Position numbers and translations under genes: made by a program. The notes beneath the pieces are model-generated. The model did not search any database. It was not told where the DNA came from and saw nothing but the letters and a program-made list of their open reading frames with translations. From Telluria aromaticivorans (lineage in GTDB: Bacteria; Pseudomonadota; Gammaproteobacteria; Burkholderiales; Burkholderiaceae_D), in the NCBI RefSeq assembly GCF_013003915.1, contig NZ_JABAIV010000001.1, positions 186,001 through 250,000 on the forward strand: a stretch of DNA of 64,000 nucleotides. Reading direction: 5' to 3'. Shown piece after piece: positions 48,382-63,830 of the stretch (position 1 is the stretch's first letter; the number at the start of each line of letters is the position of its first letter).

Positions 48382-48756
48382 CTAGAAGCTGAAGATGGAA
48401 TAGCCGTCGGCGGCAAGCTGAGCAATGCTCGGCAGGCCCGAGGTACCGGGCACGCTGTTGTCGGTCACCAGGTCGAAGCCGTTTTTCTCGGCGTCCTCGC
48501 GCGCCCCGAAGACGTCGGCGCAGCCGCATGACACGCCGGCGACGGTATCGGCCACTGCTTGGTAGAGCGCATGGACCGGGTGGGCAGGGTTGCCGACCAC
48601 GCCGGCCCAGCGGGTACCGGTGCCTTGGAAGTAGATCGCAACGTCAGTGCCGCGCTGTTTGAAATCGTAGGCTGCGGCCAGGCCGTTAAACAGGCGTCCA
48701 AGGGCTTCTTCGCCGCCATGGGTTGGGTCCGAAAGAATGATGATCGCTGCTTTCAT
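48382..48756 (-). CDS. DsrE-family protein, copy 1
   Basis: Cytoplasmic DsrE/DsrF-like protein of 124 residues; the family handles sulfur relay or unknown redox steps. It has a C77-G-C79 motif (VSCGCADVF) that could hold a redox-active or persulfide cysteine, and N-terminal [16 protein letters not shown]. It is about 94% identical (8 changes in 124) to the protein at 51651-52025. Both have a related promoter, so this is a recent duplication. Confidence 0.85.
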   Translation of the reverse strand: MKAAIIILSDPTHGGEEALGRLFNGLAAAYDFKQRGTDVAIYFQGTGTRWAGVVGNPAHPVHALYQAVADTVAGVSCGCADVFGAREDAEKNGFDLVTDNSVPGTSGLPSIAQLAADGYSIFSF

Positions 48757-48808: not shown

Positions 48809-48873
48809 ATGGATCACATTCTGGAGCTTAAAGAGATGCGGAAAAACAGTGCAGGGAGAAATTGATTGTTTCG
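48809..48873 (-). promoter_or_regulatory. Island-type promoter P1 of first dsrE-like gene
   Basis: On the minus strand: dyad GAAA-N7-TTTC (48858-48872), -35 TTTTTC (48841-48846), 17-bp spacer and -10 CAGAAT (48818-48823). This layout and spacing are shared with five other sites in 48.8-62.7 kb. The dyad resembles a LysR-type recognition site. Confidence 0.65.
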
Positions 48874-49047
48874 GTAGGAGGCGCTTGTCCGGCAAACAAT
48901 CAGCGCGGATGCCGATCCAGCATGGTCCTTGCCCTTGGGGGCATGAAGGCCTATGCTTGACTGTCAATACGAAAAAAGATGGCGCACTATTCTTGCCGCA
49001 CTCACGCAGTGCACGTGACTAACTCCACACCATGAGCGGAGACATCA

Positions 49048-49980
49048 ATGAGCGAACATTCCAAGTTTCACCGCGGCGAGCGCGTCATCCAGGAACGTGC
49101 CGGAGAAACAGCCCAAGCTGACCGGAACATCTCCGTGCTGACCGACACGGTCATCGGTGGAGCGCGCCCTTTCATCGGCAAGCAGTCTATGGCAGTCGTT
49201 GCGAGCATCGACGGTGGCGGTGGTGTCTGGGCATCGGTCCTGTTCGGCCAGCCCGGGTTCGCACAAACCGAAACGGGCAAGGCGATCGGCCTGTCGGTAC
49301 CAGAGCAGGAGCGCGACCAGACCGACCCGTTCTGGGCAAACATAGGCGCGAACCCGAGCATCGGTATGTTGTTCATTGAGTTAGGGAGCCGGCGGCGCTA
49401 CCGCGTCAACGGCCGCCTGGCTGCGATCGACGCAGCCGGCGTCGAAGTGGCCGTGATCGAGGCCTATCCCAACTGCCCCAAGTACATCCAGCGGCGCAAC
49501 CTGCGCGCGGTCGGAAGCAGCGGTCTGCCGGCGGCGGCAACGCATGGTGCGCTTCTCGCAGGCGATGTCGCGGATATCGTGGGCCAGGCCGATACCCTGT
49601 TCGTGGCAAGCTGCCATCCCGAATACGGCGCCGACGTCTCGCACCGCGGCGGAACTGCCGGCTTCATCACGATCCTGGATGAGCACACCCTGCGAATCCC
49701 GGACTATCCCGGGAACTGCCTCTACAACACCTTCGGCAACTTCGAGGTCAATCCCCGTGCGGGCCTCTGCATCCCGGATTTTGCAGGCAACCGCCTACTC
49801 CAATTGACGGGGGATGTGGTGCTGCACTGGGATATGCCGGACCCCGCCGGCCAGACTGGCGGCACCTTGCGTTTTTGGGACTTCAAGGTCGAACGCCTGG
49901 TCGTGCGTAACACGCCCCAGCAGCTCGAATGGGAATACCTGGATCCCTCCCCATTCAATATGCCACTGGCCACGGCCTAA
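49048..49980 (+). CDS. PNPOx-like flavin-binding protein, copy 1
   Basis: Protein of 310 residues with a pyridoxamine-phosphate-oxidase-like split-barrel fold (FMN or F420 binding). Motifs shared with two other proteins in the window are SVLFGQPGF, FIELGSRRRYRVNG, EAYPNCPKYIQRR, GADVSHRGG and NTFGNFEVNP. No signal peptide. It ends one base before the convergent PDR reductase, its likely electron donor, because the same two modules are fused in the protein at 55644. A probable promoter TTGCCC-N17-TATGCT lies around 48933-48961. Substrate unknown. Confidence 0.85.
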   Translation: MSEHSKFHRGERVIQERAGETAQADRNISVLTDTVIGGARPFIGKQSMAVVASIDGGGGVWASVLFGQPGFAQTETGKAIGLSVPEQERDQTDPFWANIGANPSIGMLFIELGSRRRYRVNGRLAAIDAAGVEVAVIEAYPNCPKYIQRRNLRAVGSSGLPAAATHGALLAGDVADIVGQADTLFVASCHPEYGADVSHRGGTAGFITILDEHTLRIPDYPGNCLYNTFGNFEVNPRAGLCIPDFAGNRLLQLTGDVVLHWDMPDPAGQTGGTLRFWDFKVERLVVRNTPQQLEWEYLDPSPFNMPLATA

Positions 49981-49981
49981 G

Positions 49982-50917
49982 CTACAGGTCGAGCTCGAGG
50001 TCGCCGCCCGCGGCCCACGAAACGCAGGTGGTCATGCCCTGGAGCCGCTGCTCCGGCGTGAGGCAGACGTCGCGGTGCACCGGTGTACCCGACACCACCT
50101 GAGCGAAGCAATTGCCGCATTCCCCGCGCTTGCAGTCGTAAGAGACGAAAGCGTCTGCGGCAATCATCGCATCAAGGATCGAGGTGCCGGGCGCGACCTC
50201 GATCCTCAGGTCGCTTTGACGCAGGTAGACCCGCACCGGCTTATCCTCGCTAGCGGTGCGCGCGCCGAAGCTCTCTACGTGCACGTGGGCCGCGGGCCAG
50301 CCCAGGGCCGCCGCACGGGTACGGATCGCTTCGAGCAGCGACACGGGGCCGCAGGCGTGCAGTTCGCTGCCTTGGGCATAAGGACCGATCAGCGCGTCCA
50401 GGTCCGGGCGCTGGCCGCTGCTGGTGAGATAGGTCGACACCACGCCGTGCCGCATGCCGTCGAATTCGTCCATCAGCACCAAGCGCTCGGCCTCGCGCGC
50501 CAGGTAATGCAGTTCAAAGCGGTGGCCATCGCCGTCGAGGGCCTGCGCCATCGAGGTCATCGGCGTAATGCCGATACCGCCGGCTACCAGGACCGTGCGC
50601 ACTGCGCCCCGCTTCAACTCGAACGCATCGACGGGAGCGCCAAGCTCCACTTCCATGCCTGGCCGGTATTCGTCATGCAGGACGCGTGATCCACCGCGTC
50701 CCGCCGGTTCGCGCTGAACGGCAATGCGCAGGCACTCGCCCGGTGCACCGACCAGGGAATAGGCCTTGTGGAACTCCTCCCCCGAGTGCGAGCGAAATCC
50801 GATGTCGACGTGGCTGCCGGGCGCCCAGCCGGGGGCGGTGGAACCATCGGCGGGCACCATGCGGAACTCCTTCACATGGGGGCCGTGCTGCACAACGGTT
50901 TGAATGAGGTAGCGCAT
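49982..50917 (-). CDS. PDR/VanB-type oxidoreductase with C-terminal 2Fe-2S ferredoxin
   Basis: Protein of 311 residues: FMN/FAD-binding barrel with KAYSLVGAP, NAD-binding GGIGITPMTSM and a C-terminal plant-type ferredoxin with Cys262, 267, 270 and 298. In this family (phthalate dioxygenase reductase) electrons pass from NADH through flavin to the 2Fe-2S centre and on to an oxygenase or other partner. No oxygenase gene is nearby. ATG 50917 begins the domain; an upstream ATG at 50935 is possible. Confidence 0.88.
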   Translation of the reverse strand: MRYLIQTVVQHGPHVKEFRMVPADGSTAPGWAPGSHVDIGFRSHSGEEFHKAYSLVGAPGECLRIAVQREPAGRGGSRVLHDEYRPGMEVELGAPVDAFELKRGAVRTVLVAGGIGITPMTSMAQALDGDGHRFELHYLAREAERLVLMDEFDGMRHGVVSTYLTSSGQRPDLDALIGPYAQGSELHACGPVSLLEAIRTRAAALGWPAAHVHVESFGARTASEDKPVRVYLRQSDLRIEVAPGTSILDAMIAADAFVSYDCKRGECGNCFAQVVSGTPVHRDVCLTPEQRLQGMTTCVSWAAGGDLELDL

Positions 50918-51150
50918 GATCTCAAGCCTTTGCATGAAAAGAAGTGATGTAAAAAGTGCTGCCCGTGCTGATAGGCGTATTCATTTGGGTTCCCGCAATT
51001 CACTACCTGGCTTACTGCCATGGCACCATCATCCATGCCCCAAGGTCGGCCCGCCATTCCGCGCTGTCTTGCGGCGCGTCCGTGGGCCTCTGGGGAGGGG
51101 GACGCACTAGTAATCTCATTAGCCATGCCAGCATGTCGTCCCCCATTCGC

Positions 51151-51633
51151 TTATAGTCCGAGCTCGGACAGCCCGGGATGCTCATCTGGACGCCGTCCCA
51201 TCGGCCAGCGAAACTTGCGCTCCTGCTCGAGGATGGGCAGGTCGTTGATGCAGGCGTAGCGGTTCACCATCAGCCCGTCTGGACCGAACTCCCAGTTCTC
51301 ATTGCCGTACGAGCGGAACCAGTTGCCGGAATCGTCGCGCCATTCGTAGGCATAGCGCACGGCGATGCGATTCTCCGTGAACGCCCACAGCTCCTTGATG
51401 AGCCGGTACTCCAGCTCCCTGCGCCACTTACGCTCGAGGAAGGCCTGTGCCTGGTCCCGCCCTTGCGCGAATTCAGCGCGGTTGCGCCAACGGGTATCCA
51501 GGCTGTAGGCCAGGGCAACCCGGGCGGGATCACGGCTGTTCCAGCCATCCTCCGCGAGGCGGATCTTTTCGATGGCGCTCTCCCGGGAAAATGGCGGCAA
51601 GGGTGGGCGGAGTTCGTTCACGGTGGTGGCCAT
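51151..51633 (-). CDS. DUF1348 / NTF2-like protein
   Basis: Protein of 160 residues of the nuclear-transport-factor-2-like superfamily. Motifs [58 protein letters not shown] and EFGPDGLM match DUF1348. The cone-shaped fold binds small hydrophobic ligands or acts as an enzyme, but the function of DUF1348 is not known to me. It follows the second dsrE-like gene by 17 bp and is probably co-transcribed with it. Confidence 0.88.
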
Positions 51634-51650
51634 ATGTGACTCCCGTCCGA

Positions 51651-52025
51651 TCAGAAGCTGTAAATGGCGTAGCCATCAGCGGCGAGCTGGGCAATGCTCG
51701 GCAGGCCCGAGGTGCCCGGCACGCTGTTGTCGGTGACCAGTTCGAAGCCATTCTTCTCGGCGTCTTCGCGGGCGCCGAAGACGTCTGCACAGCCGCAGGA
51801 AACGCCGGCGACCGTATCAGCTACTGCCTGGTAGAGCGCATGGACCGGGTGGGACGGGTTACCGACCACGCCGGCCCAACGGGTGCCGGTACCCTGGAAG
51901 TAAATGGCGACTTCAGTACCGCGCTGCTTGAAGTCGTAGGCGGCGGCCAGGCCGTTGAAGAGGCGTCCGAGGGCTTCTTCGCCGCCGTTTTTTGGGTCCG
52001 AGAAAATGATGATGGCTGCTTTCAT
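51651..52025 (-). CDS. DsrE-family protein, copy 2
   Basis: Near-identical twin of the protein at 48382-48756 (124 residues, same C77-G-C79 motif; changes such as S/A and D/E). The upstream region is also conserved over about 120 bp, including a GGTAGCCGT block in the leader and the island-type promoter. It heads a minus-strand unit with the DUF1348 gene and perhaps the PDR reductase 215 bp further on. Confidence 0.85.
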
Positions 52026-52077
52026 GATGCGCTCCTGGTTGGGATGGTTCGGTTGAACTGGTAGCCGTCGTTACGGC

Positions 52078-52142
52078 ATGGAAGTCATTCTGGCCGACCG
52101 ACGCATATAGAGAAACGGGGCGCGGAGAAATGGATTGTTTCG
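52078..52142 (-). promoter_or_regulatory. Island-type promoter P2 of second dsrE-like gene
   Basis: On the minus strand: GAAACAATCCATTTC dyad (52127-52141), -35 TTTCTC (52110-52115), 17-bp spacer, -10 CAGAAT (52087-52092), then AATGACTTCCAT as in P3. Spacing equals that of P1, P3, P5 and P6. Confidence 0.68.
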
Positions 52143-52321
52143 CGAAATGGAATGTCCAGGACATGCCAGAGCGTTGATGCAGAATGCTGTAACCGCTCTA
52201 TTTATTGCCAAACGACAATTTTTAGACGTTTTAATGGTCGAGCTTGTCTACAATCTTTTCTCGCTAATTACTAAACCATGTGCGGTCGATGTAGTTCAAC
52301 CAGACGTGCCCAGACAAATCC

Positions 52322-52693
52322 ATGACCGCAATCAGCCGAAATTCGCTTCCCCGCTTACCTGATGCAAAGGCATCGGATCCGCGTTCCAAGCTCGAACAGT
52401 TGTACAAGACCCTGCAGGAGTTGAGAAAACAGTTGCGCTCGCTGCACAAGCAGCTGGAAAGTGCCGGGACCATCGGAGAACGGATGGCGCTCCGGCGCCA
52501 GATCACTGCTGTGGAGGAGATGGTCGAGGCGATCCGCCGGCAGATCATGCTTATCACCCAGGCCGAAAAACGCAAGCAGGGTGTGCGGCTGGAGGTGCCT
52601 GCCCTTGACGCTTCGCTGACGGGCCTTGAGCCCGCCGACAGCCAGGACTCGGCAGTGACGATCTATAAACCCCCTTACGAGCTCGGTGAGTAG
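52322..52693 (+). CDS. Coiled-coil protein, unknown function
   Basis: Protein of 123 residues dominated by a long amphipathic helix (about 22-85, with repeated Leu, Lys, Gln and Glu; LEQLYKTLQELRKQLRSL) typical of coiled coils such as FlxA-like proteins. No signal peptide and no catalytic motif. No strong ribosome-binding site was seen, so the start is uncertain. It is divergent from the second dsrE-like gene. Confidence 0.55.
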   Translation: MTAISRNSLPRLPDAKASDPRSKLEQLYKTLQELRKQLRSLHKQLESAGTIGERMALRRQITAVEEMVEAIRRQIMLITQAEKRKQGVRLEVPALDASLTGLEPADSQDSAVTIYKPPYELGE

Positions 52694-53052
52694 GAAAATT
52701 CCACGCTCATCCTGACAGATTGGCGGTGGACGAATCCGATCAAGGCAACGCAAGCGGGCAGCGGGCAGCCATCCGGGAGCTTCATGATAAATGCCATGAA
52801 GACGGCGACAGCCTTCAGACATGGAAGGAAATTCTTGACCGCCAGGCGCATCCGGCTTTGGCGACGGACGGTGCCGCTTCTATCGAGCCCGACTTTCCGC
52901 AGCCCTCTCCTCCTGCGCGGAAGGCCGCGCAGGAGGACCGAAGAGTTATGGGCATGGTCGGCACGTTCATCTGCACCAAAGCCCGACCGGTAGGCCACCC
53001 GGCCGGCAAGCCTCAGTTTCCTGTCCCGGGCGCTGGCCTTGACGCAGCCGTA
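52694..53052. other. Intergenic region with a strong hairpin
   Basis: No convincing gene occurs in these 359 bp. A perfect 12-bp inverted repeat, CCTCCTGCGCGG (52909-52920) and CCGCGCAGGAGG (52925-52936) with an AAGG loop, could end or stabilise a transcript; it lacks a T run. Confidence 0.45.
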
Positions 53053-53175
53053 TCAGGTGACCGTGCCAATCGTTCCACCACGCTGACCAGCGCTTCGGCG
53101 CCAGCTGCCCTGCTCGCCCAGGCCAATAAAGCCGACCTGTAGCGCCCGATCGTCAGCGAGGGTTGGCTGCTTCAT
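53053..53175 (-). pseudogene. N-terminal stub of an NAD(P)-binding oxidoreductase
   Basis: An ATG at 53175 overlaps the stop of the SDR gene (ATGA). Forty codons follow, beginning with a Rossmann start (ALQVGFIGLGEQGS) like 3-hydroxyisobutyrate or 6-phosphogluconate-type dehydrogenases, then similarity is lost and a stop occurs at 53053. In another frame AEALVSVVERLAR could be the gene's far end. It appears to be the second gene of an SDR operon reduced by deletion. Confidence 0.5.
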
Positions 53176-54101
53176 CGGGCAATCATCCGCACCGTATCTT
53201 CCCACAGCCTCTCGGCCAGGACCGGGTCAAGCGCATAAGCGGCTACTCCACGGAAATCGACGGGGCGGTGGTCCACGACTGGCGCTTCATTGCAGTCTTC
53301 GAAGTAGCGTCCACCGATGCCGTCGAGCAGGGGTGAGGCGGCTAGCAGCACCGAGGTGGCCGCACCCTGCGCCGTAGTTTTGCGTCGTTCTGGGGGCGTC
53401 TTGAGGCCACCGGTATGCTTTTGCAGGTTAGTGGCGATTGCACCCGGGTTAAGGGCATTGGCGAAAATGCCGTCTGTGGCCCAGCGCCGGGTTGCTTCGA
53501 CCGCCATCAGGGCGCAAGCTGACTTGGACTGGCCGTAGGCCACGAGAGGATCGTAGGCCAGGAAGTTGAAATGTATGTCGCCAAAGAGCACAGGCGCGAT
53601 CAGGTTGCCGCTGGAGCTTACCGACACGACACGCGCCCCGCCCTCCGGTTTCGCCGCGGCCAGTGCGCCATGCAGGCCCAGCGTCAACGTGAAGTGCCCG
53701 ATGTAATTGGTGGCCAATTGCATTTCCCAGCCCTCCGCTGTCAAGTTTCGCTCGGGAATGGCCATCACGCCACCGTTATTGATCAGCATGTGAAGCGGCC
53801 CCTGCCAAGCGGCGATGAAGGCCTGTACGCTGGCTTGGTCCGCAAGGTCGAGAACGCCGACTTTCACAAGGCCATCTCCGCATGCGGCATTCAGGTCGGC
53901 GGCGACTCGGTGGCCTGCTTCCAGGTTGCGCACGGCGATGGTGACTTCGGCTCCAGCGGCGGCCAGGGCGCGCGCTGTATCGATACCGATACCGGACGAT
54001 CCGCCGGTAACGACGGCGCGCTTGCCGCGCAGGTCGACGCCTTGCAGAACCTCGTCCGCGGTGGAGGCGAAGCCGAATGGGGTGGTAATCATTGATGTCA
54101 T
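53172..54101 (-). CDS. Short-chain dehydrogenase/reductase (retinol-dehydrogenase-like)
   Basis: NAD(P)-dependent oxidoreductase of 309 residues. Cofactor motif TGGSSGIG at 32-39, NNGG in LINNGGVMAIPE, catalytic Ser in VSVSSSGN and YGQSK with Tyr and Lys. Length and the C-terminal PVVDHRP segment resemble the retinol/protochlorophyllide-reductase-like subgroup. Substrate unknown. ATG 54101 follows an AGAGGA ribosome-binding site; the longer frame to 54209 lacks one. Confidence 0.88.
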   Translation of the reverse strand: MTSMITTPFGFASTADEVLQGVDLRGKRAVVTGGSSGIGIDTARALAAAGAEVTIAVRNLEAGHRVAADLNAACGDGLVKVGVLDLADQASVQAFIAAWQGPLHMLINNGGVMAIPERNLTAEGWEMQLATNYIGHFTLTLGLHGALAAAKPEGGARVVSVSSSGNLIAPVLFGDIHFNFLAYDPLVAYGQSKSACALMAVEATRRWATDGIFANALNPGAIATNLQKHTGGLKTPPERRKTTAQGAATSVLLAASPLLDGIGGRYFEDCNEAPVVDHRPVDFRGVAAYALDPVLAERLWEDTVRMIAR

Positions 54102-54296
54102 TGCTTGATCCTCTTGGTCAATGGCGCGGTGTCTGCGCCGCATGACCCAAGCATAGGACAAGCGCATTGATGAGACTAGATCGATAAAGCTTGATGCCTT
54201 GTTGAGCAACTTGGGACAATCGAAAACAAATTCGCGATGTGCATGGCTTGATAACCCTCTTGCGCCGCAGGAACCGCCGTTCTGCCAGTGCTCTCC

Positions 54297-54800
54297 TCAG
54301 TCCAGATCGAGTCGAAAAAGAAGGGAGTTCCGGTCTGGATAATCGTAGTGAATGGGGAGAGCGATCTTGTCGACCTGGGTGAAGCCGGCTTTTTTGTAGA
54401 ACGCATGCGAGCGGGTGGCGACCGCCGGTGTATCGAGCACGATGGTGCGCACGCTCGACGCACGCGCATGGCCAATAAGCGCCGAATAAAGCTGTATTGC
54501 AGGTCCATTCTGCATGCCCCTGAAGGCCGCGTCGACAAAGAATTTTTTCAGCACGCCGACTTCGGGAGCAGCCAGCTGCAGGCCGATCGTCCCCACCACC
54601 TGCCCGTCTTCGTTCAGGGCAACCCAGAAGCCGCCGCCCTCGTCGAGGTAGCACGACTCGATGGCCAGGATATCCGGCTGGTCGCTGGCGGAAATGCCAA
54701 CTTTTGCTTCGACATTCTGAATATGGAGGATTAAGTCCACGACCTGGTCTTTGAATTCGTCGCGGAAGGGAACAATGCTGGTCAAGGTATTTTTGCTCAT
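54297..54800 (-). CDS. GNAT-family N-acetyltransferase
   Basis: Acetyl-CoA-dependent transferase of 167 residues. Core strands GGGFWVALNEDGQVVGTIGLQ, the AcCoA loop in KKFFVDAAFRGMQNGPAIQL (a diverged version of the usual Q/RxxGxG/A) and the C-terminal RSHAFYKKAGFTQV are recognisable. It acts on an unknown amine substrate. ATG 54800 begins the fold. It is divergent from the GST gene. Confidence 0.8.
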   Translation of the reverse strand: MSKNTLTSIVPFRDEFKDQVVDLILHIQNVEAKVGISASDQPDILAIESCYLDEGGGFWVALNEDGQVVGTIGLQLAAPEVGVLKKFFVDAAFRGMQNGPAIQLYSALIGHARASSVRTIVLDTPAVATRSHAFYKKAGFTQVDKIALPIHYDYPDRNSLLFRLDLD

Positions 54801-54883
54801 GATCGCTTTCGAAGTTTGGGTTAGTGCTTCGGCAAGCATATCAATCGTTTGCCCACTCAGCGCAGCAGCATTCTTACGCCAAC

Positions 54884-54948
54884 CGAAACGAACAATTGCA
54901 GCTTGCACCGTTTCTCTTCCACGCAGCGTCGAGCAAAATGACTTCCAT
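54884..54948 (+). promoter_or_regulatory. Island-type promoter P3 of the GST-flavoprotein operon
   Basis: GAAACGAACAATTGC (54885-54899, imperfect dyad), -35 TTTCTC (54911-54916), 17-bp spacer, -10 CAAAAT (54934-54939), then AATGACTTCCAT. The last 12 bases are identical to those of P2 although the downstream genes are unrelated. Confidence 0.68.
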
Positions 54949-54998
54949 TACCTGCCATATCCCTACAAGAAGCGTCGTTCCCTACTTGGAGAATTCAC

Positions 54999-55628
54999 AT
55001 GCAAGCCACCCCATCCGCCCCCATCCTCCTGTACCGCAGCAAGGTTTCGGGGCATTCGCACCGGGTTGAACTATTCCTATCTCTACTGGGGCTGCCGTTC
55101 GAGATGATGGACGTCGATCTCCGCGGTGGTGCGAACCGAAGCGACGCTTACCTTGCGCTCAATCCATTTGGCCAAGTGCCAGTCATCGACGACAACGGCA
55201 CCGTGGTGTACGACTCGAATGCGATCTTGGTTTACCTGGCCCGCACCTATGGCGGCGAGCGCTGGATGCCTTCCGACGTCGCGAGCCAGGTCGCCCTCCA
55301 GCAGTGGTTTTCGATTGCCGCCGGTCCTGTCTTGAACGGCCCCGGCGCTGCGCGGATGGTTAGCCTTTTCCGCGCGCCACTCGACCACGAACGCGCCAAG
55401 GGCATCGCCCACAAACTGTTCGCCGTGCTCGAGCAAGGTTTTTCCAAGGCCGCGTATGCAATCGGGGACGAGGCCAGCCTGGCCGACATCGCCGCCTATA
55501 GCTATATCGCCCATGCACCGGAAGGCGGCGTCGACCTGGCGCCTTACCCGGCTCTGTGCGCTTGGCTGGCAAGGATCGAGGCCCTGCCCGGTTTCGTGCC
55601 CATGCAACGCGCCGCGCCGGCCACCTGA
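54999..55628 (+). CDS. Glutathione S-transferase
   Basis: Cytosolic GST of 209 residues with an N-terminal thioredoxin-like domain (LLYRSKVSGHSHRVELFLSL, LNPFGQVPVIDD with the cis-Pro, YDSNAILVYLA) and an all-helical C-terminal domain (EASLADIAAYSY). It conjugates glutathione to electrophiles or reduces peroxides. Ribosome-binding site TTGGAGAATTCAC precedes ATG 54999. It is the first gene of an operon with the large flavoprotein fusion (15 bp). Confidence 0.9.
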   Translation: MQATPSAPILLYRSKVSGHSHRVELFLSLLGLPFEMMDVDLRGGANRSDAYLALNPFGQVPVIDDNGTVVYDSNAILVYLARTYGGERWMPSDVASQVALQQWFSIAAGPVLNGPGAARMVSLFRAPLDHERAKGIAHKLFAVLEQGFSKAAYAIGDEASLADIAAYSYIAHAPEGGVDLAPYPALCAWLARIEALPGFVPMQRAAPAT

Positions 55629-55643
55629 ACCAGGAGCGAAGCC

Positions 55644-57725
55644 ATGGCAAGCATACAAACGGGCCTGCAGCGGCCGGGCTCCTCGGACTCGCCTTTCCAC
55701 ATTGGCGAACTGGCGATCCAGACGCGGGCCGGCACGCTGGCCCAGTCGGCGATCACGGGCCGGCGCGGCATCCGCGACCACATGCCTGACCAGCACCGGG
55801 AATTCTTCGCCCAACTGCCTTTCATGCTGGTCGGCAGCGTCGACGTCAACGGCCAGCCTTGGGCCTCCGTGCTGGTCGGCCAGCCCGGTTTCATGCACTC
55901 GCCAGATCCGAAGACGCTGCGCATCGACGCCCATGCGCTCCCGGGCGATGTCCTTGGCAGCAACGTGCGTCACGGGGCCCGCCTGGGCTTGCTGGGGCTG
56001 GAGCCGACCACCCGCCGGCGCAACCGCCTCAACGCTGCCGTGACGAATGTCGATGCGGCCGGCTTCACGCTCGGCGTGACCCAGAGCTTCGGCAACTGCC
56101 CGCAATATATCCAGGGGCGCCAGGCGCGCTTCGTCGAAGAACTCGGGCCGCTGCAGGTACTAGACCAGCCGCGCCTGCTTGACGCCGACCGCGCCCTGAT
56201 CGAAGCGGCCGATACGCTGTTCATCGCCAGCAACGCAATGCTCGACCCGGCCTCGCCGACCTCGGGTGCGGACGTCTCGCATCGGGGCGGGCGTCCAGGA
56301 TTCGTGCGCGTCGAAGGCGGCGATACCCTTGTCTTTCCCGATTTTACCGGCAACTCGTTTTACCAGACCCTCGGCAACCTGCACCTGGACCCGCGCGCCG
56401 GAATATTGTTCATCGACTTCATCTCGGGCGACCTGCTGCAGCTGTGCTGCAGCGCCAGCGTGGTCTGGGAAGGGCCGGAGCTGGAGGCCTTCGTGGGCGC
56501 CGAGCGCTTGGTGCGCTTGAAAGTCGAACGCGTGCGGCGTCTCGTCAACTCGATGCCGCTGCGCTGGTCCAACCCCAGCTACTGGCCACTGCTCGAGCGT
56601 ACCGGCACCTGGGCGCTGGCGGACGCTGCCCTGGCCGCCGAACGCCTGGCGGCCAATTGGCGCCCATATCGCATCGCCGAGGTGATTGACGAGAGCGCCG
56701 GTATCCGCAGCTTCCTGCTCGAGCCTGCCGACGGGCACGGCGTGCCCCACTACGTGCCAGGCCAGTTCCTGCCTGTTGCTTTGCCGACCGAGACCGGCAT
56801 CCTGCGCCGCACCTACACCCTGTCGGCTGCGCCCAGCGGACGCCAGCTGCGCATGTCGGTCAAGCGGCAAGGCGCTGCGTCTAGCTGGTTGCATGAGCAT
56901 GGTGCCGGTGCCGTGATCGATGCGCTCGGCCCACGCGGCAGCTTCACTTTCGACCGCATGCGTACCCGCCCGGCGGTGATGCTGTCTGCCGGCGTCGGGA
57001 TCACACCGATGATTGCCATGCTCGACGGCCTGCTGGTGAACAACGAACGCTCGCGTTTTCCGTACCCGATCCATTTTATCCACGGCGCCCGTAGCGAAAA
57101 CGAGCAGGCCTTTGCCGCGTTTTTGGCGACCAAACAGCGCCACCACAAGAACCTGTCGGTGCATTTGGTGCACAGCCAACCCGAGGGGGGCCTGCCACCC
57201 GACAACCTGAAGCGCCACGTGGGCCGGGTCACGATCGGCATGCTGAAAACCCTGCTGCCTTTCGACGACTACGACTTTTACCTGTGCGGCCCACAAGGCT
57301 TTTTGCAGCATCTATACGACGGCCTGCGCGCTTTACACGTGCCAGATGCTCAAATTCATCTCGAAGACTTTGGCGGTGACCAGCCGCTGCGGCGCCAGCC
57401 GGATGCCGATGCGCCACTGGCACAGATTGAACTGGTCGATGCCGCGGACGCCGTGCCGGTGCCCGTCCTGTTCCATCGAAGCGGCCGCAGCGTAACCTGG
57501 CGCCCGGAAGCGGGCACGCTGCTGGAACTCGCCGAATCAGAGGGCCTGGCGCCGCTCTCAGGCTGCCGCAGCGGAAATTGCGGGACCTGCGCGACGACCC
57601 TGCTGGCCGGGCGTACGGGCTACCTGACGACCTCAGGCGCGCCCTGCCCTCCGGGCCAGATCCTGCCCTGCATCAGCGTGCCGCTAGCTTCCATCGATGG
57701 AGGGGCGGTCGTGCTCGACGGTTAA
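55644..57725 (+). CDS. PNPOx-FNR-2Fe-2S ferredoxin fusion flavoprotein
   Basis: Three-module protein of 693 residues. Residues about 40-330 form a PNPOx-like split barrel paralogous to the proteins at 49048 and 59546 (SVLVGQPGF, QSFGNCPQYIQGR, GADVSHRGG, QTLGNLHLDP). Residues about 335-600 are a ferredoxin-reductase module (RRTYTLSAAP for FAD, SAGVGITPMIAML for NAD). Residues about 610-693 are a plant-type ferredoxin with Cys641, 646, 649 and 676. Electrons from NAD(P)H could reach the PNPOx flavin inside one chain. The target substrate is unknown. Confidence 0.9.
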   Translation: MASIQTGLQRPGSSDSPFHIGELAIQTRAGTLAQSAITGRRGIRDHMPDQHREFFAQLPFMLVGSVDVNGQPWASVLVGQPGFMHSPDPKTLRIDAHALPGDVLGSNVRHGARLGLLGLEPTTRRRNRLNAAVTNVDAAGFTLGVTQSFGNCPQYIQGRQARFVEELGPLQVLDQPRLLDADRALIEAADTLFIASNAMLDPASPTSGADVSHRGGRPGFVRVEGGDTLVFPDFTGNSFYQTLGNLHLDPRAGILFIDFISGDLLQLCCSASVVWEGPELEAFVGAERLVRLKVERVRRLVNSMPLRWSNPSYWPLLERTGTWALADAALAAERLAANWRPYRIAEVIDESAGIRSFLLEPADGHGVPHYVPGQFLPVALPTETGILRRTYTLSAAPSGRQLRMSVKRQGAASSWLHEHGAGAVIDALGPRGSFTFDRMRTRPAVMLSAGVGITPMIAMLDGLLVNNERSRFPYPIHFIHGARSENEQAFAAFLATKQRHHKNLSVHLVHSQPEGGLPPDNLKRHVGRVTIGMLKTLLPFDDYDFYLCGPQGFLQHLYDGLRALHVPDAQIHLEDFGGDQPLRRQPDADAPLAQIELVDAADAVPVPVLFHRSGRSVTWRPEAGTLLELAESEGLAPLSGCRSGNCGTCATTLLAGRTGYLTTSGAPCPPGQILPCISVPLASIDGGAVVLDG

Positions 57726-57850
57726 GAGCTGGGTAGCGCCGCCGTTGCATGGAAGAGCTCGGCTTGCCAGTCGGCCACGCTGCGAATGCGGGCGCTGGTC
57801 GCAGTGTCGCGGTGGCTGAGCAACCAGAGTTCGCGCTTGACTTCGGCCTT
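57722..57850 (-). pseudogene. C-terminal stub of a LysR-type regulator
   Basis: About 42 codons (EVKRELWLLSHRD through ADWQAELFHATAALPSS) match the end of the LysR substrate-binding domain. Upstream on the minus strand the frame continues without similarity, and the DNA-binding domain and most of the sensor are gone. Stop codons of this stub and of the fusion gene overlap tail to tail. It may be the relic of a regulator for this island. Confidence 0.65.
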
Positions 57851-57915
57851 AGTCGAAGGCTTCACGCATCCGAGACCCCACCGGTGGGGACCATACCGGG
57901 ATATTTGCGGTTCAT

Positions 57916-57979
57916 GAATGCAATTTTGCCCGTTCCACGCCCTGGGCGAAAGCCCTGGGAGGCGGCATTGCTTCCAACC
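57916..57979 (-). promoter_or_regulatory. Weak island-type promoter P7, minus strand
   Basis: On the minus strand: GGAAGCAATGCCGCC (57961-57975, degenerate upstream half), -35 TTTCGC (57946-57951), 17-bp spacer and -10 CAAAAT (57923-57928). It points toward the LysR stub and probably once drove a gene now deleted. The fit is weaker than for the other six sites. Confidence 0.4.
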
Positions 57980-57999
57980 GCCTTTCAATGGAGAACACC

Positions 58000-58185
58000 A
58001 TGCTTGCCAAGGACGCGATCCGCAGCGCGCTCACGCGCCGCCCTGGCCGCGAAGTCTTCGTTTACCCGGGGCGCGATCACGCGTTTACCCGTCCGGGTGG
58101 ACACCACTACCACGCCGGCGACGCCGACCTGGCCAACGCCCGCACGGATGCGTTTTTCGAGCGCCACCTGGCCTCGGCCGCGTGA
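58000..58185 (+). pseudogene. C-terminal fragment of a dienelactone-hydrolase-like protein
   Basis: A 61-codon frame begins at ATG 58000, eight bases after GGAG. It encodes GREVFVYPGRDHAFTRPGG and a helix ending in FFERHL. This matches the last part of dienelactone-hydrolase-type alpha/beta hydrolases, with the catalytic His in GRDHAF. The nucleophile part is absent. It may still be translated, but it cannot be an enzyme on its own. Confidence 0.6.
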
Positions 58186-58228
58186 TCCCGGGCGCATCAC
58201 CACCACCTACCTATCCTGAAAGATATTC

Positions 58229-59032
58229 ATGAAACGTCAACAACTTGCCCTCCTCTTCGGCGCCGTCACGATCGCCGCGGCCCTCGCCACTCCTGCCGGC
58301 GCTGCGCCGGCGCAGGAAGGCGGCAAACCGACCATCGTCCTGGTTCATGGCGCCTTTGCCGATTCATCGAGCTGGGATGGCGTCACCGCCAAGCTGCTGG
58401 CCGATGGCTATGCCGTGGTTGGCGCTGCTAATCCGTTGCGCGGGGTTGCAAGCGACGCTGCCGCGGTCTCGAGCCTGGTCAAGGGCATCCCCGGCCCGGT
58501 CGTACTAGTCGGTCACTCCTACGGCGGCGCAGTGATCTCCCAGGCGGCCAATGGCAACGACAACGTCAAGAGTCTTGTTTTCGTCGCGGCCTTTGCGCCT
58601 GAAGCGGGAGAAAGCGCCTTTGAGCTGACCGGCAAGTTCCCCGGCTCGACACTTCCTCCGACGCTGGCGGCGCCGGTTGCTCTTGCCGGCGGCGGTGTGG
58701 ACCTATACATCCGCCAGGATAAATTTCCGCAGCAATTTGCTGCCGACGTGCCACGCGCCAAGGCAGCCTTGATGGCGGCCGGTCAGCGCCCGGTCGCCGA
58801 AGCGGCGCTGAAAGAAGCTGCCGGCGCGCCGGCCTGGAAGAACCTGCCTTCGTATTTCGTGTACGGCAAGCGCGACAAGAACATCCCGCCCGCTGCCCTG
58901 GCCTTCATGGCTGAACGGGCGCACTCGCGCCGCACGCTGGCGATCGAGGGCGCTTCCCACGTGGTGATGACTTCGCATCCGGCCCAAGTAGCCAAGCTGA
59001 TCGAAGAGGCAGCCGCGGTCAAAACCAAGTGA
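58229..59032 (+). CDS. Exported alpha/beta hydrolase
   Basis: Protein of 267 residues with a signal peptide (about 1-25, ending AGA). Oxyanion region HGAFADSSSW, nucleophile elbow GHSYGG with Ser97, acid in GKRDKNIPP and His in GASHVVM form a complete catalytic set. The fold resembles the short salicylate-esterase/EstC-like hydrolases. It is probably periplasmic; substrate unknown. The two following genes of the island are read in the same direction. Confidence 0.87.
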   Translation: MKRQQLALLFGAVTIAAALATPAGAAPAQEGGKPTIVLVHGAFADSSSWDGVTAKLLADGYAVVGAANPLRGVASDAAAVSSLVKGIPGPVVLVGHSYGGAVISQAANGNDNVKSLVFVAAFAPEAGESAFELTGKFPGSTLPPTLAAPVALAGGGVDLYIRQDKFPQQFAADVPRAKAALMAAGQRPVAEAALKEAAGAPAWKNLPSYFVYGKRDKNIPPAALAFMAERAHSRRTLAIEGASHVVMTSHPAQVAKLIEEAAAVKTK

Positions 59033-59042
59033 TTCCCGTTGC

Positions 59043-59110
59043 GGGGAGAAATACTTCATTTCTCCCCGCTGTCTGTGCAGGCGCGTCCCGGCTGCCTAAG
59101 ATGGACTGTC
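59043..59110 (+). promoter_or_regulatory. Island-type promoter P4 with perfect dyad
   Basis: GGGGAGAAAT (59043-59052) and ATTTCTCCCC (59058-59067) form a perfect 10-bp inverted repeat containing GAAA-N7-TTTC. A poor -35 TGTGCA (59074-59079), a 17-bp spacer and -10 TAAGAT (59097-59102) follow with the same spacing as the other sites. The hairpin could also end the upstream transcript, but there is no T run. Confidence 0.58.
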
Positions 59111-59138
59111 TTCTTTCAACTCACCAAGGCAGCCAATT

Positions 59139-59504
59139 ATGCACACCACAGCACGCATCACAGCCTCATTCGCCGCCTTCGCACTGGCAGTGTCGTTCGT
59201 CCAGCCGTCCCGGGCGGCTGACGTCGCTTATCGCCAGGTCGAGGTCGAAGGCGTGCGCATCGCCTACCCCGAGTGGCAAGCCTGGCTGCGCAAGCAGCAG
59301 CTGCCAACCCTGGTCATGTGGGGCAAACACGACCAGGCTTTCGTGACGCCGGGCGGCCTGGCATTCAAGCGCGACAATCCGCGCGCCGAGGTGCACATCC
59401 TTGATGGCGGCCACTTCGTGATGGACACCCGCCTGCAGGAGGTGGCTACGATCACCGCGGACTTCATGGGATCACAACGCGCCGTGCAAGTCGCGAAGCC
59501 CTAA
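59139..59504 (+). pseudogene. Exported alpha/beta hydrolase with the catalytic middle deleted in frame
   Basis: A 121-codon frame holds a signal peptide (about 1-27), the start of a hydrolase (VAYRQVEVEGVRIAY) and then directly its end (EWQAWLRKQQLPTLVMWGKHD, DGGHFVMD). Compared with the full-length homologue at 62838-63830, about 198 residues are missing between Tyr43 and the EWQ segment, including the nucleophile. The frame is preserved, so a short secreted product could still be made. It lies 41 bp upstream of the third PNPOx gene and under promoter P4. Confidence 0.75.
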
Positions 59505-59545
59505 ACAGCTGGCCCCATTGCCCACACAGACGACAGGAACTTATC

Positions 59546-60490
59546 ATGCCCCCATTTTTATTCCACCCAGGCGAGCGCGCAGTCCAGCTGCGTGCAGGCG
59601 AAGCCGCTATTGCAGACCGCAATGGTAGCGTGATCGCCGCCAGCATCCTGGGCGGTGCCCGGGGTTTCATCAGTAAACAGTTCATGGTCGTGCTCGCGAG
59701 CAGCGATGCCGACGGCCGTGTATGGTCATCAGTCCTTTATGGCAAGCCCGGTTTTGTAAGCGCCGCCGGCGACGCCCTGATCGCACTCGAGGTCGCTTCT
59801 GGCCGGCGCGACAGCGCCGATCCGTTCTGGGCCAATATTGCGGCCAATCCGGCGGTCGGCTTGCTGTTCATTGAACTGGGCACACGGCGCCGCTACCGCA
59901 TCAATGGCGTGATCAGCCATGAGGACGAGGCAGGTCTCGAGATCACTGTGCAGGAAGCCTATCCCAACTGCCCAAAATACATCCAACGCCGCGAGCTGCG
60001 TGCACTGAGCACGGACGGCGTCGCCGATGGCGTTGCGACCGGTAACAGTATCGGCGGTAGCGTCGAGGCCCTCCTGCGCGCCGCCGATACTGTCTTCGTG
60101 GCCAGCGTGAATACTGCTACCGGCGCCGATGCCTCGCACCGCGGCGGGCCGCCTGGCTTCGTCCAGGTGATCGGTCCGCATACGCTGCGCATCCCCGACT
60201 ATCATGGCAACAGCATCTTCAATACCCTCGGCAACCTGGAAGTCGACGCACGTTTCGGACTGTCGATTCCCGACTTTGAAGGGGGCCGGCTGCTCCAGCT
60301 AAGCGGCCGTGCACGCCTGCTATGGGACCAGGACGATCCGTACAGGCTGACCGGCGGCACCGGGCGCTTCCTCGAGGTCACGGTCGAGCGCTGGATCCTG
60401 CGCCATATCGCCGAGCGCCTCGAATGGGAGTACCTGGACGCGTCCCCGTTCAATCCGGCCGGCCCGGGGCGGATCATATCCTCGGCCTAG
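59546..60490 (+). CDS. PNPOx-like flavin-binding protein, copy 3
   Basis: Protein of 314 residues, clearly paralogous to the one at 49048: SVLYGKPGF, FIELGTRRRYRING, EAYPNCPKYIQRRELRAL, GADASHRGG, NTLGNLEVD and LEWEYLDASPFN near the end. It has no reductase gene beside it. It is probably co-transcribed with the deleted hydrolase from P4. Cofactor (FMN or F420) and substrate are not known. Confidence 0.85.
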   Translation: MPPFLFHPGERAVQLRAGEAAIADRNGSVIAASILGGARGFISKQFMVVLASSDADGRVWSSVLYGKPGFVSAAGDALIALEVASGRRDSADPFWANIAANPAVGLLFIELGTRRRYRINGVISHEDEAGLEITVQEAYPNCPKYIQRRELRALSTDGVADGVATGNSIGGSVEALLRAADTVFVASVNTATGADASHRGGPPGFVQVIGPHTLRIPDYHGNSIFNTLGNLEVDARFGLSIPDFEGGRLLQLSGRARLLWDQDDPYRLTGGTGRFLEVTVERWILRHIAERLEWEYLDASPFNPAGPGRIISSA

Positions 60491-60903
60491 CTTAAGCCCC
60501 GCGATACCATCGGGTAGCCGACCGTGCAGGTGAGCAGCAAGATGCTGTGGATGACCTCGACACGCGTGGCGTCCGCCTCCAGCGCGTACAAGGCTGTGGG
60601 TAGCGCCTTCAGCACCGATGCCGAGCGCAGCCGCCAACTGGAATCGGGTGACCGTGCCTGGCATCGATCGGGCCAGCGACGCGCACTGCGCATCCCAGCT
60701 TTTCGAGCGCGGCGAAGACGCCGCCGTGTTCCTGCCGTTCGGCCCGGTAATGGGCGGGAATACGGTCGGTCGATAACGCGCGGCTCCTTGGTGCCGGTCC
60801 GCGCGCGAGTTCTCGTCCTCCAGTATAGGCAGAGGTCCATACGATGCAAGGCATTGCCGGACCGGTCCGAAGCCATCGACCGGGCGTTCAGCATATCGAT
60901 TTC
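60491..60903. other. Region without identifiable gene
   Basis: No supported gene was found. A minus-strand frame around 60609-60854 reads protein-like in places (RIPAHYRAERQEHGG, VFAALEKLGC), but it lacks a start site and a recognisable family, so it may be another gene relic. Confidence 0.35.
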
Positions 60904-60967
60904 CGAAACAATCCATTTCCCGGCGCACCGTTTCTGCTTCTACAGGCGCTGCCTAGAATGGCTCCAT
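60904..60967 (+). promoter_or_regulatory. Island-type promoter P5
   Basis: GAAACAATCCATTTC dyad (60905-60919), -35 TTTCTG (60931-60936), 17-bp spacer, -10 TAGAAT (60954-60959), then GGCTCCAT. It is the best match to the shared layout. The next gene is the small membrane protein at 61053. Confidence 0.7.
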
Positions 60968-61052
60968 GTCGCCGCCAACGCGACTTGCGGGACCAACTCG
61001 CTCACCCTATACCTGTCAACTGGTTCCCGCCCGGAACCCACCGGAGAATGCT

Positions 61053-61262
61053 ATGCGTTACCTGACCAACGAGCTTGCCTGCCCCACCCTCGGGCTCTTA
61101 CGGAGCCTGCTCGGTTCCCTCATCGTGCTGGCGCTGCCTCCCGGCGCGGGCACGGCCCTCATCGGGCTGGCGACGGCCCTGGCCTGGCGGCTGCCAGCGT
61201 TGTTCCCGGGACTGACCCGCACACCGGCGTCCCGGAGTGCCACAGCCTGTAGAACCGCTTGA
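61053..61262 (+). CDS. Small membrane protein
   Basis: Product of 69 residues with a hydrophobic stretch (LLRSLLGSLIVLALPPGAGTA shape, about residues 14-45) and a Pro/Arg-rich tail. ATG 61053 has a good ribosome-binding site (GGAG at 61043-61046), and promoter P5 lies 90 bp upstream. No family was recognised. Confidence 0.45.
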   Translation: MRYLTNELACPTLGLLRSLLGSLIVLALPPGAGTALIGLATALAWRLPALFPGLTRTPASRSATACRTA

Positions 61263-61304
61263 CGATGCCAACCGATCGGCGGATAAAGGACATATCCTTT
61301 CCGC

Positions 61305-62546
61305 ATGGGAGTCGCCATGGTCACGGTAACGACGAACGAGGTCATGCAGGGCTTGCGAGATAGCGAATTCATCCTTCACTACCAGCCCAAAGCGTCCTTG
61401 ATCAGTAACCGCATCGTTGGGGCCGAAGCGCTGGCGCGCTGGCAGCGCCCTGACGGCGTGCTGCTCCCGCCTGGCGCCTTTATCCCGGTAGCAGAGCGCT
61501 CCGGCCTGATCAATCGCTTGACGCTGCAACTGCTGCCGAAGCTGATGGATGACCTTGCAGCAAAAGGGATCAGCAGCGACATGTGCGTCTCGTTCAACGT
61601 CACGGCGCCGGACCTCGAAGACGACGTGCTGACGGAACAGATTCTTGCCAGCGCGGCACAAGGCAGCTTGCCGGCGGGCTCGCTCGAACTCGAGATCACC
61701 GAGACCCAGGCCATGCAGGCCGGGCACAGGATGGTGCGCAATGTCGATGCGCTGGCCGAGGCGGGTATTGGGCTTGCAATGGACGACTACGGCGTCGGCT
61801 ACTCCTCCATCGATACCCTCAGCCAGTGGCCGTTTACCAGCATCAAGCTGGACCAGGGCATCGTCGGCCGCATGCTGAATTCAACCAAGAACGCCACCAT
61901 CGTTCGCTCCTCGATCCGGCTCGGGCACGAACTCGGACTGCATGTGGTCGCCGAGGGTGTCGAGACGTCCGAGCAGCATGACTTCCTGGTCGAGGCTGGC
62001 TGCGAAATCGCGCAAGGCTACCTGGTGAGCCACCCGCTGCCCCTGGCAGAATTCGATGTGTTCCGACATAACATTGGCAAATGCCGGGGCATGCCGATAG
62101 GGCTGGTCCACATGGCCATCGTCGACCACGTTCAATGGCGGCGTCAGATGGTCAGTTACGCGATCCAGCGCAGCGCTCTCCCAGCAGATTCCCCGCTCCG
62201 GCAGATGGAGGGCTATCCCCCCCTTTGTCTAACCAAATGTGCGCTTGGCAAATGGTATATCGGCGATGGGCGCTATTTTGCCGATACACCCATGTATCAG
62301 GCCATTGACGCGCCGCACCGGAGCCTGCACGATGTAGGGGGACAACTCGTCGGCCGTATTCGCGCAGGCGCAGAGCTTAATGATATTGTCCCTCTGCTGT
62401 ATGAACTAAAACAGGTCTCTACTATCTTGATACGGCTTCTCGAAGATATCGAGGACGCCGGCCTGCTGGCTCTATATACGAGTCCTCCCGCGCAGTGCAC
62501 GCACATGGACTTGGGCGGCGCAGGATCAATCCGAACTTCCCACTGA
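61305..62546 (+). CDS. EAL phosphodiesterase with C-terminal zinc-binding CZB domain
   Basis: Cytoplasmic protein of 413 residues. The EAL domain (about 12-255) has EAL at 41-43, ELEITETQAM, DDYGVGYSS and VVAEGVE, so c-di-GMP hydrolysis is likely. The C-terminal region has the chemoreceptor-zinc-binding pattern: H275-V-Q-W278, C312-A-L-G-K-W317 and H338-x3-H342, which would bind Zn(II). CZB domains tune diguanylate cyclases such as E. coli DgcZ and some chemoreceptors; attachment to an EAL domain is less usual. Zinc may control hydrolysis. Confidence 0.85.
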   Translation: MGVAMVTVTTNEVMQGLRDSEFILHYQPKASLISNRIVGAEALARWQRPDGVLLPPGAFIPVAERSGLINRLTLQLLPKLMDDLAAKGISSDMCVSFNVTAPDLEDDVLTEQILASAAQGSLPAGSLELEITETQAMQAGHRMVRNVDALAEAGIGLAMDDYGVGYSSIDTLSQWPFTSIKLDQGIVGRMLNSTKNATIVRSSIRLGHELGLHVVAEGVETSEQHDFLVEAGCEIAQGYLVSHPLPLAEFDVFRHNIGKCRGMPIGLVHMAIVDHVQWRRQMVSYAIQRSALPADSPLRQMEGYPPLCLTKCALGKWYIGDGRYFADTPMYQAIDAPHRSLHDVGGQLVGRIRAGAELNDIVPLLYELKQVSTILIRLLEDIEDAGLLALYTSPPAQCTHMDLGGAGSIRTSH

Positions 62547-62654
62547 TAGGCACCGACAGGGCTGGCGATCCAGCGCTGCGTGCGTGCGCAGAACGCGTCC
62601 GTCAACTGGATAGGCATGCGGCCCCCTATCAAATGGCACCTCAGTTTCGGCAAG

Positions 62655-62718
62655 CGAAATACTGAATTGAGACCCCCACCATTTTTCTCCTTCACGACCT
62701 TCCCTAGAATGGATTCAT
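62655..62718 (+). promoter_or_regulatory. Island-type promoter P6 of last hydrolase gene
   Basis: GAAATACTGAATTGA (62656-62670, three of four right-half bases kept), -35 TTTTTC (62682-62687), 17-bp spacer, -10 TAGAAT (62705-62710), then GGATTCAT. Spacing is the same as at the other sites. Confidence 0.62.
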
Positions 62719-62837: not shown

Positions 62838-63830
62838 ATGATGCACATCATCCGCACTCTCGCCCCTTTCGCAGCAGCGATCACCCTTGTCTTCGCTTCC
62901 CATGCTACCCACGCGGCGCCGGCCGCGGCTCCCGCCAAGGCCGCACCTAACGTAGCCAGTACTGCCGGCGTCAGCTACCGCACCGTCAAGGTCGATGGCG
63001 TGAATATTTTCTACCGTGAAGCCGGCCCGAAGGATGCCCCGACCATTCTGCTTCTGCATGGCTTCCCAACCTCATCGCAGATGTTCCGCAACCTGATTCC
63101 GCTGCTGGCTGACCGTTACCATGTTATCGCGCCGGATTATCCGGGCTATGGGCAAAGCGACATGCCCGCGATGAAGGACTTCACGTACAGCTTCGACAAC
63201 CTGGCCAAGGTGGTCGACAAATTCACCGAAGCCGTGGGCGTGACCAAGTATGCGATGTACGTGCAGGATTACGGTGCGCCGATCGGTTTCCGCATCGCCG
63301 CTGCGCATCCCGAACGTGTCACCGCCATCGTCGTGCAAAACGGTAATGCTTACGATGAAGGTATTGACAACGACTTCTGGAAGCCCATGAAGCAATATTG
63401 GGCGGACAAGTCCGAAGCCAATGGCGCGAAACTGCGACCCTTGTTCGAACTGGGCGCCACCAAATGGCAATATACGGAAGGCGCGCGCGATGTTACGCGG
63501 ATTAGTCCCGATGCCTGGACCGTGGACCAGGCCTATATGGACCGCCCCGGCAACAAGGACATCCAGCTCGAACTGTTCTACAGCTATGGCAGCAATCCGG
63601 GGCATTACGCGCAGTGGCAGTCCTATTTCCGCAAGCATCAGCCACCCATGCTGATTGTCTGGGGGAAGAACGACAAAATCTTCCCACCGGCTGGCGCCAG
63701 CCCTTACTTGCGCGACCTGCCGAAGGCGCAACTGCACCTTCTCGATACCGGTCACTTCGCGCTCGAAGAAGACAGTGCCAAGATCGGCGCCCTGATGCGT
63801 CCCTTCCTGGCCAAAGCCATGCGCAAATGA
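62838..63830 (+). CDS. Exported alpha/beta hydrolase, epoxide hydrolase/dehalogenase-like
   Basis: Protein of 330 residues with a signal peptide (about 1-27, ending HAA). HGFP (74-77) forms the oxyanion region and D144 in VQDYGAPIG sits at the nucleophile position, as in epoxide hydrolases and haloalkane dehalogenases rather than esterases. The acid is in GKNDKIFPP and the His in [10 protein letters not shown]. It is the full-length homologue of the deleted gene at 59139. The exact reaction is not known; two adjacent ATG codons are possible starts. Confidence 0.87.

Follow-up and report, generated by a model that had tools for sequence, protein, structure and literature searches.

Six promoter-like sites and the genes behind them

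The window, that is, the whole 64,000-nucleotide stretch of Telluria aromaticivorans DNA that was analysed (G000:C1:186001-250000, from a genome of 5.23 Mb), carries six short promoter-like sites with a common arrangement of elements, which are considered here as putative operator-promoters of a LysR-type activator. Site positions are numbered from the G of GAAA and run through a 15-bp dyad, 11 bp, a -35 hexamer (positions 27-32), 17 bp and a -10 hexamer (positions 50-55). GAAA starts at 48872 (minus strand), 52141 (minus), 54885 (plus), 59048 (plus), 60905 (plus) and 62656 (plus). The first-pass annotation had described the same order and spacing of elements at the six sites, and this is borne out, the distances being 22 bp from GAAA to the -35 and 17 bp from the -35 to the -10 at all of them. 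Its description of the dyad as GAAA-N7-TTTC or a close variant also stands: the motif is exact at four sites and ends in TTGC at 54885 and in TTGA at 62656. A TTTCTC-like -35 and a CAT after the -10, both thought to be common to all, are present at five sites but not at 59048, where the -35 position reads TGTGCA.

Three models were used for scoring. R1 was built from the six window sites only, R2 was built from 20 sites, and R3 extends the site model by the left arm, a further half-site described below. For the R2 and R3 scans of the own genome, 150 loose candidates were scored each time. Because R2 and R3 include sites from several of the genomes that they scan, untrained loci are reported separately.

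Site 1 (48818-48872, minus strand; R3 expectation value (E) 2.7e-11) has its dyad at 48858-48872, its -35 at 48841-48846 (TTTTTC), its -10 at 48818-48823 (CAGAAT) and no left arm, and it precedes a DsrE family gene (48382-48756, minus strand; Pfam DsrE, 1.3e-06). Site 2 (52087-52153, minus strand; R3 E 3.3e-13) combines a left arm ATTCC (52149-52153) with a dyad at 52127-52141, a -35 at 52110-52115 (TTTCTC) and a -10 at 52087-52092 (CAGAAT). Behind it lies a likely operon (51151-52025, minus strand) in which family matches identify a DsrE gene (51651-52025) and a DUF1348 gene (51151-51633); in G010 the DUF1348 gene is preceded by a site of its own. A 2Fe-2S reductase gene (49982-50935) starts about 215 bp beyond this unit. 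Site 3 (54873-54939, plus strand; R3 E 1.2e-9), with left arm CTTAC (54873-54877), dyad 54885-54899, -35 at 54911-54916 (TTTCTC) and -10 at 54934-54939 (CAAAAT), precedes another likely operon (54999-57725, plus strand), assigned by family matches to a glutathione S-transferase (GST; 54999-55628) and a PNPOx-FAD-2Fe-2S flavoprotein (55644-57725).

Site 4 (59048-59102, plus strand; R3 E 9.9e-7) is the weakest, with a dyad at 59048-59062 and a -10 at 59097-59102 (TAAGAT) but no recognisable -35 and no in-register left arm. The unit behind it (59139-60490, plus strand), identified by family matches and a comparison of hydrolases, consists of an alpha/beta hydrolase gene that has lost its middle part by internal deletion (59139-59504) and a PNPOx flavoprotein gene (59546-60490). 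Site 5 (60893-60959, plus strand; R3 E 6.3e-14) has an imperfect left arm ATATC (60893-60897), a dyad at 60905-60919, a -35 at 60931-60936 (TTTCTG) and a -10 at 60954-60959 (TAGAAT), and it is followed by a 69-residue small open reading frame (61053-61262, plus strand) of uncertain coding status, with weak coding signs and no Pfam family. Site 6 (62644-62710, plus strand; R3 E 4.7e-13), with left arm GTTTC (62644-62648), dyad 62656-62670, -35 at 62682-62687 (TTTTTC) and -10 at 62705-62710 (TAGAAT), precedes an alpha/beta hydrolase gene (62838-63830, plus strand) whose top NCBIfam model is haloalkane dehalogenase, at a score under the cut-off of that model. The downstream genes had been called unrelated. 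This is true only in part: the DsrE proteins behind sites 1 and 2 match at 116 of 124 residues (94% identity), and the truncated hydrolase (59139) has a relative in the intact one at 62838 (25/68, E 2e-18), but four gene types remain.

Exact GAAA-N7-TTTC occurs four times in the window, always at these sites, where 0.42 matches are expected and none of 100 shuffles reaches four. With a leave-one-out matrix, every site ranks at the top of 127,885 window positions (17.8-46.0 bits, against 8.3-12.6 for the best other position). Compared with shuffles, the pairwise identity of the six sites is high in the dyad (0.75, z 15) and the -10 (0.79, z 10), moderately raised in the linker (z 4.9), the -35 (z 4.1) and the ten bases on each side (z 3.3 and 3.4), and at chance in the 17-bp spacer (0.29, z 0.6), the outer upstream flank (z 1.2) and the downstream flank (z 0.0). 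Because the spacer and the outer flanks are at chance, the elements have been conserved and the sites are not recent copies of a whole stretch.

The likeness of the sites could also reflect descent only, with duplicated promoters that are still undiverged. The two DsrE units are near-identical copies, and DsrE is followed by the hydrolase behind one site in four loci of relatives (L124, L130, L156 and L160), so that site 6 could once have been a DsrE promoter. However, spacer and downstream flank remain at chance while the elements are conserved also when same-gene pairs are left out, and in the ten sites of the genome described below the outer upstream flank exceeds chance only slightly (0.28 against 0.26, z 3.5), with the spacer still at chance. 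A recent copy is contradicted by this test, whereas an old duplication fits control by a common activator; even with copied promoters, selection has kept the elements. Descent alone is thus hardly credible as the explanation.

Left arm and LysR-type box of the putative operator

LysR-type regulators have a T-N11-A recognition site near -65 and an activation site near -35. The dyad GAAA-N7-TTTC, which had been taken for the operator, is real but represents only its right part, and the left arm had been missed: an extra half-site, ATTNC, lies 11 to 7 bases 5' of GAAA. ATTNC and GNAAT together form a T-N11-A box, with T at position -9 and A at position 3. In a column test on 26 selected sites (10 own sites and 16 strong DsrE/hydrolase sites) this box was found in 23, including 7 of the 10 own sites, and among all 86 sites T stands at -9 in 86% and A at 3 in 100%. 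GAAA-N7-TTTC as the whole box was ruled out, since its polarity is A-N11-T and the column test gave the T-N11-A box with the left arm.

Given a predicted start 7 bp past the -10, the box is centred at -65, and the predicted promoter has the T-N11-A inverted repeat of LysR-type promoters at the expected place. Two more half-sites follow: the third, near -50, is the right-half TTTC of the dyad, and the fourth overlaps with the hexamer TTTCTC. Because the -35 is weak, an activator-dependent promoter fits.

Genome-wide sites and the candidate LysR regulator

In the own genome, R1 finds three further sites at C1:72-81 kb (E 4.9e-4 to 8.2e-3). R2 gives ten sites (E<=2.9e-6) and an eleventh match only at E 0.58; R3 gives the same ten (E<=9.9e-7), with the next match at E 0.09. 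The pattern had been expected upstream of genes rather than at random places, and the scan agrees with this: ten strong sites are followed by a gap, and nine of them precede a recognisable, correctly oriented reading frame, the tenth (60905) preceding only the uncertain small open reading frame. The ten sites form two clusters, the island of six and a group of four at C1:69.6-80.9 kb, about 154-179 kb away, in which three sites precede DsrE genes and one a weakly cupin-like gene. The island had been regarded as one regulated unit, but the proposed regulon extends past it to this second cluster.

The second cluster (L054:2820-16814; C1:68.8-82.8 kb in the own genome) contains three DsrE paralogs and four sites, as well as an AraC/Cupin_6 regulator gene, a CMD gene and, by eye, a glutaredoxin-like gene. 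A LysR gene without its DNA-binding part lies there beside a PNPOx remnant, directly before one site and its DsrE gene. EAL-domain proteins recur beside the clusters (window 61305-62546; L054, L056 and L150); the window copy has a zinc-binding CZB domain, and no site was found before its gene.

The presence of the AraC/Cupin_6 gene raises the question of whether the sites are recognised by a regulator of another class, for example this protein or an alternative sigma factor. Relatives of the AraC protein occur in L150, L155, L224 and, by eye, L056, and the -35 boxes of extracytoplasmic sigma factors resemble GAAA. However, an AraC relative is present in only 3 of 80 LysR loci, none of them in Pseudomonas, where the operator persists. 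Furthermore, GAAA starts 49 bp 5' of the -10, beyond the reach of a sigma -35 contact, and the T-N11-A box is conserved. Control by another class of regulator is therefore very improbable.

Judged from sequence comparison, one LysR-type activator probably acts through all six sites as its operator-promoters, the likeliest candidate being the product of C1:251624-252520 (65624-66520 if the window were extended). An intact LysR gene with the same site at its own promoter had been sought; this gene is intact and lies 1.6 kb past the window end, but its site in the own genome has decayed, the element GAAATAATG being kept and the LysR-proximal dyad being lost. The gene has matches to PF00126 (HTH_1, 6e-19) and PF03466 (LysR_substrate, 2e-38), has no stops and is of LysR-type size (about 300 residues). 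Among its orthologs, 15 of 80 loci carry a site 17-21 bp upstream of the first aligned codon of LysR. The LysR frame starts with ATC GAC CAG/CAA in L090:3627, L056:11716, L150 and L153, and most orthologs have ATG or GTG followed by GAC/GAT CAG. A segment at 57722-57988 (minus strand) that had been taken by eye for a LysR tail matched no Pfam family and was not used.

Co-occurrence of regulator and site points to the same gene. When 61 genomes were scanned with R1, the four best other genomes (G013, 7.8e-8; G032, 8.1e-8; G005, 7.6e-4; G019, 0.00102) all belonged to the set of five other genomes with the LysR at >=64% identity; the fifth, G010, has no R1 match at E<=0.1 and an R2 match at E 4.9e-8, being untrained in R2. 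In the genus, the LysR is present at >=64% identity in 9 of 62 genomes, and an R3 site at E<=1e-4 occurs in 8 of these 9 against 0 of the 53 others (Fisher 2.7e-9, with a threshold chosen after looking, relatedness ignored and training sites supplied by five of the nine genomes). Among the 53 are two genomes with a LysR of 55-56% identity. Among the four untrained holders, E is 4.3e-15 in G343, 5.9e-9 in G352 and 2.8e-5 in G010, and in G307 a match at E 0.0024 stands directly before the LysR.

Across 80 named LysR loci, a site of at least 10 bits is found in 55; restricted to untrained loci the count is 53 of 78, compared with none of the 78 reversed sequences and 3 of the 234 Markov controls. 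These counts are not independent because many Pseudomonas loci are close relatives, and the named-genome and ortholog loci in general include many close relatives and some genomes under two ids. Of all 86 sites, 66 lie 20-300 bp before a panel gene (chance, 5.4%) and 20 have no assigned panel gene; in four of the latter (L170, L172, L173 and L174) a hydrolase paralog follows at short distance, and the range set for the assignment probably excluded it. In the family, R2 matches at E<=0.01 occur in 91 of 294 genomes and 11 of 44 genera. The reverse test used the 26 of these 91 genomes that had locus sequence and no prior use. The LysR (E<=1e-90) was found in all 11 genomes with DsrE or hydrolase behind the site, in 0 of 8 alcohol-dehydrogenase genomes and in 0 of the 7 remaining ones (six with a DUF4148-type gene).

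Gene order, surveyed with 66 of the 67 operator matches (the last, at E 0.14, was left out), is also consistent with this candidate. In Massilia, Duganella, Luteibacter and Methylophilus, its orthologs have these gene families as neighbours, again preceded by this operator; in Pseudomonas the arrangement recurs without the -10. The order LysR-site-DsrE is seen in L057, L059, L125-L127, L151, L152, L156-L158, L160, L161, L164, L167 and L169, some of which are one genome under two ids (e.g. L059 and L157). PNPOx-type genes and the LysR gene diverge over a site in L150, L152, L154, L160, L161, L164, L166 and L167. In 22 Pseudomonas-type loci, two of them titled Pantoea, the operator lies before GST with LysR downstream; in 21 of these a flavoprotein gene follows GST, the same pair as at window 54999-57725. 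In L170, L172-L174 and L176, one dyad is common to two divergent hydrolase genes, each side having a separate -35 and -10 at the usual spacing, and 12 of 15 position pairs of the dyad in L173 are complementary over 31 bp.

The most substantial alternative is that a different LysR paralog, one of about 40 LysR-like genes, or several of them control the sites. The own genome has 41 LysR-like matches, including the candidate and the truncated copy. One LysR gene starts at window 63962, directly after the site-6 hydrolase gene, and another, 41% identical to the candidate, lies at C22:64859 (L240:1480-1620), divergent from a gene that is GST-like by eye, with a partial operator match (E 0.09) between them. 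In addition, a LysR 31-34% identical to the candidate adjoins the same architecture together with alcohol dehydrogenase in eight loci of relatives. The architecture also lies between a zinc-type alcohol dehydrogenase gene and a divergent, different LysR gene in L056:5552-7623. However, it is the closer ortholog alone whose presence goes with the DsrE/GST/hydrolase sites, both in the genus and in the reverse test, which makes control by another paralog unlikely.

Several observations weigh against control by the candidate. The T-N11-A box is incomplete in 3 of the 10 own sites, and the own-genome LysR gene has, besides its decayed operator, an ambiguous start codon. Six genomes that lack the LysR at >=64% also give R1 matches (E 0.003-0.1), and R3 at E<=0.01 matches in all 9 holders but also in 11 of the 53 others (best 4.7e-4). 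No site of 10 bits is found in 25 of the 80 LysR loci, many of them from Pseudomonas, and in Pseudomonas most matches stop at about model position 50, which leaves the operator but not the -10. The neighbourhood evidence is confounded by physical linkage, in addition to the relatedness and duplicate ids mentioned above. Finally, the same architecture is flanked by a zinc-type alcohol dehydrogenase gene and a divergent other LysR gene in L131, L133-L136, L141, L143 and L144, and it precedes small DUF4148-type genes in L137, L139, L140 and L146-L148, from two other genera (Pfam confirms DUF4148 in L139, and the other five were assigned by eye). Because the architecture also occurs with another LysR and with DUF4148-type genes, the site by itself does not point to one regulator. 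The candidate's ortholog was not found in the genomes of either group, and assignment of the DUF4148 and alcohol-dehydrogenase sites to the same regulon was therefore dropped.

The proposal of a LysR regulon is nevertheless supported by the comparison, through the genome-wide count of sites, the co-occurrence, the gene adjacency and the conserved T-N11-A box. These relationships, like the spacing and conservation of the elements, are established at the level of sequence. More speculatively, and on balance doubtfully, a portable detoxification regulon may have moved with its LysR among Burkholderiales, Pseudomonas, Luteibacter and Methylophilus under the fixed grammar ATTNC-N7-GNAAT-N5-ATTKC-N11-TTTCTC-N17-TAGAAT, while its target genes were rearranged behind the copied sites. 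This grammar would then be read by three or more circuits (DsrE/GST/hydrolase, alcohol dehydrogenase and DUF4148), and related LysR proteins might cross-talk.

Proposed mechanism and known LysR-type systems

By analogy with known LysR regulators, and with binding, activation, tetramer shift and start site all inferred, a LysR tetramer would hold the recognition box ATTNC-N7-GNAAT (T-N11-A) near -65 in both states. Its second DNA-binding pair would occupy two further half-sites, namely ATTKC around -50 and the TTTC that lies on the weak -35. Upon binding of an inducer, the tetramer would shift toward the -35 and recruit RNA polymerase to the TAGAAT-like -10. The output would be probable detoxification enzymes (DsrE, DUF1348, GST, flavoproteins and hydrolases), and this gene content suggests that the inducer is an electrophile or a similar xenobiotic.

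Genes of unknown role, namely those for DsrE, DUF1348, the PNPOx flavoproteins, GST and the hydrolases, can thereby be treated as a single, testable circuit, whose candidate regulator is named and whose operator is defined exactly, and which is common to Massilia, Duganella and Pseudomonas. The matrix can be used to find further members of the regulon. The system is also a case in which the parts of an operator are kept across wide distances while their genes rearrange. The promoter design is of the textbook LysR kind; no paper that describes the regulon was found in a search of the open-licence literature for LysR with DsrE, DUF1348, pyridoxamine oxidase, GST or Massilia, and the gene set behind the design is thus without a description found there.

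The best NCBIfam models for the candidate LysR are those of YafC (NF040888) and AaeR of E. coli. Because its scores (204 and 153 bits) are far under the respective cut-offs (470 and 425 bits), it is not a member of either, and none of the best 25 of 53 NCBIfam models gave a score at the cut-off of a named subfamily. The nearest solved structures by sequence are 3mz1 and then 3hhg (E 1.5e-43), the entry of which is named only LysR family and which we take to be CrgA of Neisseria meningitidis. A relation to CrgA is suggested by this sequence match, and the target genes differ. The product of mdaB is a quinone reductase. According to PMC6422896, CrgA recognises T-N11-A at the promoter of crgA/mdaB. 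A literature search found no inducer of CrgA.

Like known LysR-type promoters, the sites have T-N11-A near -65 from the predicted start, half-sites that continue to a weak -35 and, in 15 of 80 loci of relatives, a site at the LysR gene. In contrast to these promoters, they lie at many separate units rather than at one divergent pair, and the box is not complete in every own site. In the recognition- and activation-site (RBS/ABS/ABS') scheme of LysR regulators, as given in PMC11739112, the tetramer is bound in both states and shifts on induction. That paper applies this shift model to YhaJ of E. coli, which is said there to regulate the degradation of quinol-like compounds. The YhaJ model is the working scheme adopted here for the candidate LysR, whereas the motif proposed for YhaJ in that text, TCAAATTTTTTGAAGA, and its targets are different.

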